DNA of 49,960 nt from NCBI GenBank assembly GCA_013820875.1, contig JACDHS010000018.1, forward strand, positions 1 through 49,960. The letters run 5' to 3'. The DNA comes from Verrucomicrobiota bacterium. Lineage in GTDB: Bacteria > Verrucomicrobiota > Verrucomicrobiia > Limisphaerales > JACDHS01. Below the pieces are notes generated by a model. That model saw nothing but the letters and a program-made list of their open reading frames with translations. It was not told where the DNA came from and did not search any database. Shown here in pieces: positions 18,038 through 39,343 of this stretch (the stretch's first letter is position 1; the number at the start of each line of letters is the position of its first letter). The position numbers and the translations under genes are program-made.

Positions 18038-18226
18038 TGACGCGGCAGGTGAGTGGGCTTGTTTGCAGATAATACTTTGCTGAGTAAAAGCAAAGTTAGA
18101 GCGGAACGGCAAACGCCGGTCCACGATGGGTGGGGCGAACCTGTTTTTGTGGTGAAATTCAGGGGGGAAATTGCAGCCTGTTTTGAAATGTTTTTCAGGC
18201 TTTCCGTGGAGGGTCTGCGGACCGGC
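18038..18226. other. Left flank of the 42-bp repeat array
   Basis: No gene is supported. A hairpin with arms AGCCTG (18175-18180) and CAGGCT (18196-18201) lies upstream of the array, followed by GGTC-TGCG-GACC near 18212-18223. It could hold the pheST terminator, but no T-run follows directly. Confidence 0.45.
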
Positions 18227-18577
18227 AAAAAAGGGATTTTTGGGAGTCAGCAAGGTGTGTTGGCCGCCCAAAAAGGGATTTTTGACTGTCCGCAACCTTT
18301 GCGCACTCCTCAAAAAGGGTTTTTTGACTGTCCGCAAACCTTGCGAAGGTCGCAAAAAGGCTTTTTTGACCTTCGACAAGGTGTGTTGGGTGTCGAAAAA
18401 GGGTTTTTGGCGAGTCAGCAAAGGTTGTTGGGTGTCAAAAAAGGGATTTTTGACTGTTCGCAACCTTTGCGCACTCCTCAAAAAGGGTTTTTTGACTGTC
18501 CGCAAACCTTGCGGAGGTCGTAAAAAGGCTTTTTTGACCCTCAGCAAGGTGTGTTGGGTGCCAAAAATCCCTTTTTT
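18227..18577. repeat. Tandem array of eight 42-bp units with a higher-order period and an inverted end
   Basis: Eight units start exactly every 42 bp at 18227, 18269, 18311, 18353, 18395, 18437, 18479 and 18521. Each begins with an A-run, GGG or GGC, then a T-run. Units 2, 3, 6 and 7 also hold the hairpin CGCAA-N3-TTGCG. Unit 2 resembles unit 6 (2 differences), 3 resembles 7 (1), 4 resembles 8 (about 5), and 1 resembles 5 (about 10), so two 168-bp super-units can be defined. At the next in-register position, 18563-18577, the first-unit core AAAAAAGGGATTTTT (18227-18241) reappears as its exact reverse complement. Since 42 is a multiple of three, long open frames cross the array on both strands with 14-residue periods; I do not regard them as genes. 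Function unknown. Confidence 0.9.
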
Positions 18578-18907
18578 CGTCATTTTGCGCCCAAAATCAG
18601 CTTTTTGTTTTGAAGTCACTTGAGGCAAGGCGTCAGTGCCGGGATCTTAAAACCGGTTTTTCGGCAGTGGGAATGGAAGAAAAGGGGGCACCGTTTGTTA
18701 GGTGAAATCCATTGTCTCGCTCCGCTTCTCCCATTAGCCCAGATTAGCGGTACTGTTTTGGCGGTTTCGTAGCACTGTGACCCTGTGGTGAATCCGGTGA
18801 GAAACCTGGATTTGAAAAATTGGAGAGGCTGAACTACGGTTGCTTTCGCTGCGCCGCTTTGATTGGAGGCGCAACTCTACAAGACAATCAAAAGGGAAAG
18901 GGAATTT
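18578..18907. other. Intergenic stretch right of the array
   Basis: No gene is supported. The segment contains ATTAGCGG-type sequence near 18737, also seen at the ends of two genes in this window, and the presumed promoter of the PEBP gene. AAAGGGAAAGGGAATTT directly before 18908 is a good ribosome-binding site. Confidence 0.5.
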
Positions 18908-38340: not shown

Positions 38341-38366
38341 GCCCAACCATTGATTATCAGTTGGCT
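38341..38366. other. attI-like integration site
   Basis: GCCCAAC (38341-38347) and GTTGGCT (38360-38366) form an inverted pair of core-like half-sites 12 bp apart, immediately upstream of the first cassette and about 70 bp from the divergent intI start. This is the position and layout expected for attI; assignment rests on context. Confidence 0.65.
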
Positions 38367-38435
38367 TTGCCTTGATAACTTGATATTACTCGGCTTTTCA
38401 GGCAAGTGTCCCAGCAGGTTCATGAGCGGAATTAA

Positions 38436-38709
38436 ATGTTTATGGTCGAGCAAAGTCAAGGTCACTCCGGTGCAGTTTCAGAACCCAAACTGTTGGATCA
38501 AGTGCGCGCCAAAATGCGGTTGCTGCACTATTCCATTCACACGGAGCGGTCCTACATCGATTGGATCAGACGTTATGTTGCTTTTCACCGGATGAAGTCC
38601 CGGGACGACCTATTTCCCAGTGAACCCAAGGTCGAATCCTTTCTCAGTGATTTGGCGATCAATGGCAATGTTGCCCCGGCCACACAGAACCAGGCCATGA
38701 ATGCCCTGG
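38436..38709 (+). pseudogene. intI: Truncated integron integrase (N-terminal fragment)
   Basis: The first 91 codons encode the N-terminal SAM-like DNA-binding domain of an integron integrase: LLDQVRAKMRLLHYSIHTE, then YIDWIRRYVAFH and ESFLSDLAINGNVAPATQNQ (the NVAxSTQNQALNALL motif region of IntI). After NAL the frame continues in unrelated sequence and closes at 38882. The tyrosine recombinase catalytic domain (Arg, HxxR, Tyr) and the IntI-specific insertion are missing. The fragment is divergent from the cassettes and adjacent to attI, as in intact integrons. Family knowledge: IntI recombines attI with single-stranded attC sites. This copy cannot do so, so the array should be fixed in place. 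Confidence 0.85.
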
Positions 38710-38930
38710 TGTGTCCCACCAGATCCGGCAAAATGCCCGTTCTTTCACCTTCCATCCGTTCAAACTTCCGACTGCCTGGCGGACAAGGTAGCCGCGATAA
38801 GGGTGATGGTGTGTCGGTGTGGTGGGCGGACTATTGTCGCTTGTGCGAAAAGCGGTGCGTTTGGGTGGCGTCACTGAACTGAACGTTTGTTCATTCCTCC
38901 GGGAAACCTTCCAATCGGCAAAAATGCCCT
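38710..38930. other. Stretch between the intI break and the 41-bp array
   Basis: No gene is supported; open frames here are continuations from the intI fragment or the array. The sequence after the break does not resemble an integrase in any frame I read. The breakpoint at about 38709 marks a deletion or insertion junction. Confidence 0.5.
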
Positions 38931-39268
38931 CTCGGTTACGTTTACAGAGACAACTTTCCCCGCATTTCTCCCTCGGTTACGTTTACCGAGACAATTTTCC
39001 CCGCATTTCTCCCTCGGTTACGTTTACAGAGGCAACTTTCCCCGCATTTCTCTCTCGGTTACGTTTACCGAGACAACTTTCCCCGCATTTCTCTCTCGGT
39101 TACGTTTACAGAGACAATTTTCCGCGCATTTCCCTCTCGGTTACGTTTACAGAGGCAACTTTCCCCGCATTTCTCTCTCGGTTACGTTTACCGAGGCAAC
39201 TTTCCCCGCACTTCTCTCTCGGTTACGTTTACCGAGACGTAAAACGATCGTTTTGGGACTCGGTTACG
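38931..39268. repeat. Tandem array of 41-bp units
   Basis: The core CTCGGTTACG starts exactly every 41 bp at 38931, 38972, 39013, 39054, 39095, 39136, 39177, 39218 and 39259. Units 1-7 are nearly identical (core, TTTACCGAG or TTTACAGAG, then CAACTTTCCCCGCATTTC). Unit 8 keeps the first 22 bp and unit 9 only the first 10. In units 2, 4, 7 and 8, CTCGGT and ACCGAG can pair around TACGTTT; in the others the right arm is CAGAG. There are no spacers, so it is not CRISPR. Since 41 is not a multiple of three, open frames crossing it change frame each unit and are not believable genes. An inverted core, CGTAACCG, occurs at 39308-39315. Confidence 0.92.
39241..39254. repeat. Perfect 14-bp palindrome at the array end
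   Basis: AAAACGATCGTTTT is its own reverse complement. It replaces the second half of unit 8 of the 41-bp array. It could be a protein-binding site or a recombination scar. Confidence 0.7.
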
Positions 39269-39343
39269 CCGACGATGGGCATTTTTTCGGTTCAGGTGTT
39301 TTGTTCGCGTAACCGCTTCTCCATTAGCGACTATCAGCGCAGA
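39269..39343. other. Array end and sialidase 3' flank
   Basis: It holds the inverted core CGTAACCG (39308-39315) and an ATTAGCGGTTCACTGCGG-type dispersed repeat that supplies the end and stop of the sialidase gene. No gene is seen. Confidence 0.5.

Follow-up and report, generated by a model that had tools for sequence, protein, structure and literature searches.

What kind of element is an intergenic array of exactly spaced 42-bp units that ends in an inverted copy of its own first core, and how did it come to be where it is? Such an array lies at 18227-18577 of the window, the 49,960-nt stretch analysed here, from the draft genome of an uncultured Verrucomicrobiota species. The window's own assembly (G000, 5.70 Mb in 239 contigs) and assemblies of relatives were searched for copies of the array and for other tandem arrays. 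The array is probably the inside of a non-autonomous, dispersed, intergenic element, F1, which resembles the BOX elements of streptococci and has spread as a finished composite.

Layout of the array

The array has nine cores centred exactly 42 bp apart, from 18234 to 18570; the starts of the A-runs shift by 1 bp (spacings of 41-43), and the core centres stay exactly 42 bp apart. With Tandem Repeats Finder (TRF), a period of 168 bp scored 562 (90% matches) and one of 42 bp scored 206. The core centres and the TRF result bear out the first-pass annotation of this DNA, which had described eight units at exact 42-bp spacing falling into four types, each repeated once. The unit order is a-b-c-d-a-b-c-d, followed by the inverted ninth core, and within a copy units of the same type are ~88-89% identical vs 63% for units of different types. 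The ninth core (18562-18577) is, as annotated, an exact reverse complement of the first core (18227-18242), over 16 bp and not the 15 bp originally given. A CRISPR array was ruled out, the whole 42-bp unit being repeated with no unique spacers. Table 1 lists the features.

Table 1. Features of the F1 and F2 elements in the window (positions in the window).
Feature	Position	Strand	Basis or occurrence
Outer left extension of F1	18087..18202	+	Subfamily A copies only: C155, C44, C232; shorter in C37
5' end module of F1 (TCCGTGGAGGGTCTGCGGACCGGC)	18203..18226	+	Present in nearly all copies keeping this end
Unit 1, type a	18227..18268	+	Core centres, unit typing
Unit 2, type b	18269..18310	+	Core centres, unit typing
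Unit 3, type c	18311..18352	+	Core centres, unit typing
Unit 4, type d	18353..18394	+	Core centres, unit typing
Unit 5, type a	18395..18436	+	Core centres, unit typing
Unit 6, type b	18437..18478	+	Core centres, unit typing
Unit 7, type c	18479..18520	+	Core centres, unit typing
Unit 8, type d	18521..18562	+	Core centres, unit typing
3' end module of F1: inverted core AAAAATCCCTTTTTT, then CGTCATTTTGCGCCCAAAATCAGCTTTTTG	18562..18612	+	Present in nearly all copies keeping this end
Outer right extension of F1, subfamily A	18613..18752	+	C155, C37, C119, C151; ends in CCAGATTAGCGGTA (18739-18752)
F2 element, second array element in the window	38345..39302	+	Copies at C69 and C56, 92-93% identical
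ORF opening with a truncated integron-integrase 5' fragment, inside F2	38436..38879	+	TIGR02249 positions 1-72
F2 array, 7.6 units of 41 bp	38929..39238	+	TRF; sequence unrelated to the 18227 array

Copies and ends of the F1 element

Searched at the DNA level, the window's own assembly showed F1 sequence, including sequence outside the array, at ~16 places in full, partial or interrupted form, so the single occurrence that would have spoken against a repeat element does not hold. Copies with ends are 76-93% identical over ~360-440 bp and lie on different contigs beside different neighbouring genes. With up to 3 mismatches, the F1 3' end occurs 14 times in this assembly and in none of 96 relatives. 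BLAST matched F1 in 0 of 38 relatives, the exact unit pattern had no match in GTDB genome contigs, the end pattern had none in viral contigs, and F1 had none in plasmids or phages.

Alignment of the copy flanks shows that conserved sequence runs past the array on both sides and that the ends are kept. It covers ~18203-18612 in most copies and ~18087-18751 in a subfamily (the window, C155, C44, C232/C119, C37 and C151), these boundaries being soft and differing between subfamilies. In the aligned copies the 5' end module closes with GGAGGGTYTGCGSACCGGC, the 3' end module reads TTTTTTYGTCATTTTGCGCCCAAAMTCAGGTTTTTG, and the 3' end matches the 5' end imperfectly in inverted orientation. The ends are thus roughly inverted copies of each other, which explains the inverted ninth core. 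F1 is built of a 5' module, a row of quasi-palindromic 42-bp units and a 3' module that inverts the 5' end imperfectly. Two places (C31 and C72) hold end-only relics with almost nothing between the ends, and one copy (C232/C119) is split by an insertion sequence. This insertion sequence, with ends starting TGAGGTTCCCCCGATTTAG, lies at the end of C232 (locus L022) and the end of C119 (L011), and the assembly breaks there.

Unit order among F1 copies

The number of units ranges from 1 to 8 among the F1 copies. The full order abcdabcd was found in C220 and C151 and the order abcdbcd in C167, C72, C54 and C12; the others are abcdacd (C37), abcd (C155), abcdbd (C109), acd (C69) and a single unit (C217). 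The types are always in order, and the inside of F1 changes by gain or loss of whole in-register blocks, in agreement with the block duplication of a diversified four-unit set proposed in the first-pass annotation. Units at the same position are 90-93% identical across copies, which is at least as high as for same-type units within a copy, and the four types therefore diverged before the composite spread. One copy (C120) has an inverted segment at L016:2170-2343, consistent with recombination between palindromic units.

Mobility of F1

We infer that F1 has been mobile because it is dispersed with conserved ends. A recombinase or transposase acting in trans would have spread it, recognising either the ends or the folded hairpins, and the inside would grow and shrink by recombination or replication slippage between the palindromic units. 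For the host, F1 may be mostly parasitic or neutral, with possible effects on neighbouring transcripts. A transposase flanked by F1 ends, as expected of an autonomous partner, was not found in the window's own genome, no active enzyme was found, and no target-site duplication was seen in the F1 flanks. No empty site was found at pheT, the pheT-PEBP neighbourhood not being kept in 80 relatives.

Comparison with known elements

The first-pass annotation had held that no described class has these features, which is too strong, as pneumococcal BOX elements have the same architecture. BOX elements of Streptococcus pneumoniae and S. suis are 67-637 bp long and consist of an end module, variable tandem inner modules and another end module; they occur in many copies, form hairpins and have open frames on both strands (PMC3049150). 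In F1, too, the inner modules vary in number and are enclosed by two distinct end modules, and the copies are many, dispersed and intergenic. The likeness is one of architecture, in another phylum where a sequence relation is not expected, and BOX elements are the closest known kind by this measure. Unlike BOX, F1 has 42-bp inner units of four ordered types that are gained and lost in blocks, and the genome as a whole holds many unrelated unit families with one period. A BOX-like element system is thereby placed in a phylum distant from that of S. pneumoniae.

Like miniature inverted-repeat transposable elements (MITEs), F1 is short, non-coding and dispersed, with roughly inverted ends. Its ends carry 16-bp exact inverted cores plus imperfectly inverted sequence. 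Unlike MITEs it has no parent transposon or target-site duplication that could be found, and its inside is a tandem array. The genome also recalls Borg elements in having many unrelated, independently formed tandem arrays (PMC9879509). Borg repeats are perfect and A-rich, have units of varied length (e.g. 18, 20 and 21 nt) and lie about half inside genes (PMC9879509), whereas the units here are diverged, confined to 41-43 bp and intergenic, and in several families they are part of dispersed elements. A description of a 41-43-bp array class was not found in the open-access literature.

Ends common to several families

The motif CCAGATTAGCGGTA was also found outward of F1, F2 and F3 arrays. With up to 2 mismatches, GCAGATTAGCGGTT occurs 19 times in the sampled sequence; 8 of these lie outward of F1, F2 and F3 arrays at a distance of 300 bp or less, where 0.4 would be expected. 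The adjacent left flank is common to F5 and F6 arrays, and the adjacent right flank to F12 and F13 arrays, with unrelated units in both pairs. Flanks and ends that are common to families with unrelated units indicate that ends and units are partly exchangeable. In S. suis BOX, the inner module is the same and the ends are different (PMC3049150).

Separately, the repeat GCTGTTTTCGGTGGAATAG was seen outward of arrays of the unrelated families F7, F8, F9 and F20 (L130, L057, L138 and L143), 4 times vs 0.12 expected.

A genome-wide class of 41-43-bp arrays

In 590 kb of the window's own assembly, part of which was picked for holding F1 copies, TRF gave a period of 41-43 bp in 46 of 50 arrays. An unselected 407-kb sample of it gave the same picture, with 24 of 27 tandem arrays at 41-43 bp (16 at 41, 5 at 42 and 3 at 43). 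About 18 array families with unrelated unit sequences were distinguished in the sampled part. Away from contig ends, which are enriched in arrays, there were 16 arrays per 407 kb, extrapolating to roughly 220 in the genome; in this fragmented draft, homogeneous arrays may be shortened and unit counts too low.

Tandem repeats of one bacterial genome usually have scattered unit lengths. A period common to unrelated sequences suggests that unit length or shape, rather than unit sequence, is what is constrained in these arrays, and this is the main conclusion drawn here. That about nine in ten arrays have a 41-43-bp unit despite unrelated sequence points to a length-measuring step in array formation or persistence, and such a step would make the origin of bacterial minisatellites testable. 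The 27 units are more palindromic than shuffles (mean 0.58 vs 0.46, z about 12), 12 of them individually at p<0.05; F5, F14, F15 and F18 are not palindromic, nor are several homogeneous arrays, and the correlation between array homogeneity and palindromicity was not significant. Each unit has two dyads half a period apart, but a periodic palindrome yields such spacing in part automatically, so this was not counted as independent evidence. Arrays showed no clear bias with respect to gene orientation and no clear preference for gene ends, as judged from mechanical gene calls.

The only other genome of the same family (G001), a sister genus, has ~5 arrays in 146 kb, at 40-42 bp, with the period kept and the unit sequences different. 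Such arrays are much scarcer in other families of the order. Partial samples of these families (0.48 Mb) held no arrays at 39-43 bp, and 1.31 Mb around pheT in 80 relatives held 6 arrays at 39-42 bp, of which G001 contributed one.

Among relatives, ~40-bp arrays lie just upstream of pheT at L146:1316-1393 and L208:2227-2380; the L208 array separates pheS from pheT, two genes with ~9 bp between them in the window.

Integron integrases near the arrays

The second array element of the window, F2, is roughly 950 bp long and has three copies in the genome. Its integrase fragment matches TIGR02249 with an E value of 2.7e-19 and has a DNA match at 38490-38711. The only other integron-integrase remnant found in the assembly (C237) has a 41-bp F17-type array 117 bp past its 3' end, and both remnants thus adjoin 41-bp arrays. 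At full-length intI loci of the order, arrays within 1.5 kb (19-22- or 41-42-bp period) were found on the 3' side of 8 of 33 loci and on the 5' side of 1 of 33, with about 0.4 expected per side from the 1.31-Mb pheT survey, an imperfect background; the 19-22-bp class was added post hoc, after the data had been seen. The link between integron integrases and arrays is a possible lead.

One explanation of these observations is that an integron integrase made or moved the palindromic units by recognising folded single-stranded hairpins by their shape. The arrays would then be comparable to attC and attI, which are shape-based recombination sites of variable sequence, and they do lie near integrase genes. 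However, the units repeat directly without cassettes, and the R''/R' boxes of attC (RYYYAAC and GTTRRRY) occurred 0 times in the arrays, although they were also found 0 times in the flanks, making this a test of little power. No full-length integron integrase was found in this genome, the richest in arrays. As the period class was also widened after the fact, and other causes may make the surroundings of intI rich in repeats, this explanation is unlikely.

A broader version stands somewhat better, as a tentative possibility: a process of the Limisphaerales-type clade, possibly derived from an integron integrase and acting on folded single strands, may make and spread modular arrays from unrelated intergenic sequence. 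It is about equally tentative that the unit sequence would be free in such a process and that the enzyme would set the length (a ruler of ~21 or 42 bp) and the quasi-palindromic shape. If the integron link holds, integron integrases would do more than capture cassettes.

In other families of the order, 21/42-bp arrays lie just downstream of full-length integron integrases at L248:1156-1367, L249:947-1178, L289:1071-1290 and L283:30-141.

Folding, bending and coding

Transcribed arrays could fold as tandem hairpins and stabilise or terminate neighbouring transcripts, and RNA folding of the hairpins had been suggested in the first-pass annotation. The predicted fold is indeed strong (-181.7 kcal/mol for 441 nt, z -6.07 vs shuffles), with long hairpins predicted from units 1+2 and 3+4. 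Covariation lends an RNA role no support: 15 distinct sequences showed no two-sided compensatory change in the c-d hairpin, and the DNA folds equally extremely (z -6.84). Rfam gave no match to the array, simple consensus searches gave no promoter-like or terminator-like site, and the lack of a clear preference for gene ends also counts against a structured RNA, which we consider quite unlikely.

The same annotation had noted that 42 bp is four helical turns and proposed that A-tract bending or a phased protein array was served by the spacing. The exact 42-bp spacing in F1 agrees with such a scaffold of bent DNA or phased nucleoid-protein sites, and the confinement of unrelated families to 41-43 bp is what a helical or footprint constraint would give. 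As a general account it is not supported, however: 41 and 43 bp are not whole turns, and in families at exactly these periods the helical phase shifts by as much as about half a turn across 8 units. Many of the ~18 families lack A-tracts (for instance F4 and F9), their unrelated sequences exclude one sequence-specific protein, and the unit number varies among F1 copies. The bending reading fits F1 alone and not the 41- and 43-bp families, and a scaffold is quite improbable as the explanation of the array.

Repeats of the REPIN/BIME type, mobilised by a REP-associated tyrosine transposase (Y1, RAYT), are likewise intergenic palindromes of alternating orientation, sometimes in ordered tandem clusters, with genome-specific sequences (PMC3116915, PMC3733652). 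The alternating inverted ~21-bp palindromes of F1 resemble BIMEs, and the F1 copy at C120 lies directly beside a RAYT-like reading frame that has decayed. Against this, the period here is fixed at 41-43 bp, there are many families per genome, and arrays are the usual form, unlike the doublets of REPINs and BIMEs. Linkage to RAYT is not clear: the assembly has only 7 Y1 hits, arrays beside them are not clearly commoner than array density predicts, and no RAYT gene flanked by F1-type palindromes was found in it. No GTAG or CGTC tag was noticed by eye at unit ends, and an origin as REPINs or BIMEs is very unlikely. The decayed frame at C120 (LMNRGDRREPIFTDD) lies in L016 just downstream of the F1 copy and upstream of a gyrB-like gene.

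Although a 42-bp unit would make 14 codons and long open frames cross the array on either strand, a coding tandem repeat of 14 amino acids is hardly credible, as the 41- and 43-bp units of sister families shift the frame, the longest frame differs between F1 copies, and a gene caller based on codon usage leaves the arrays intergenic. The conserved coding family that the first-pass annotation had allowed for is therefore not what was found, and the array is noncoding. With the same caller, nearly all arrays of the genome were intergenic, one lying within a probable overextended gene start.
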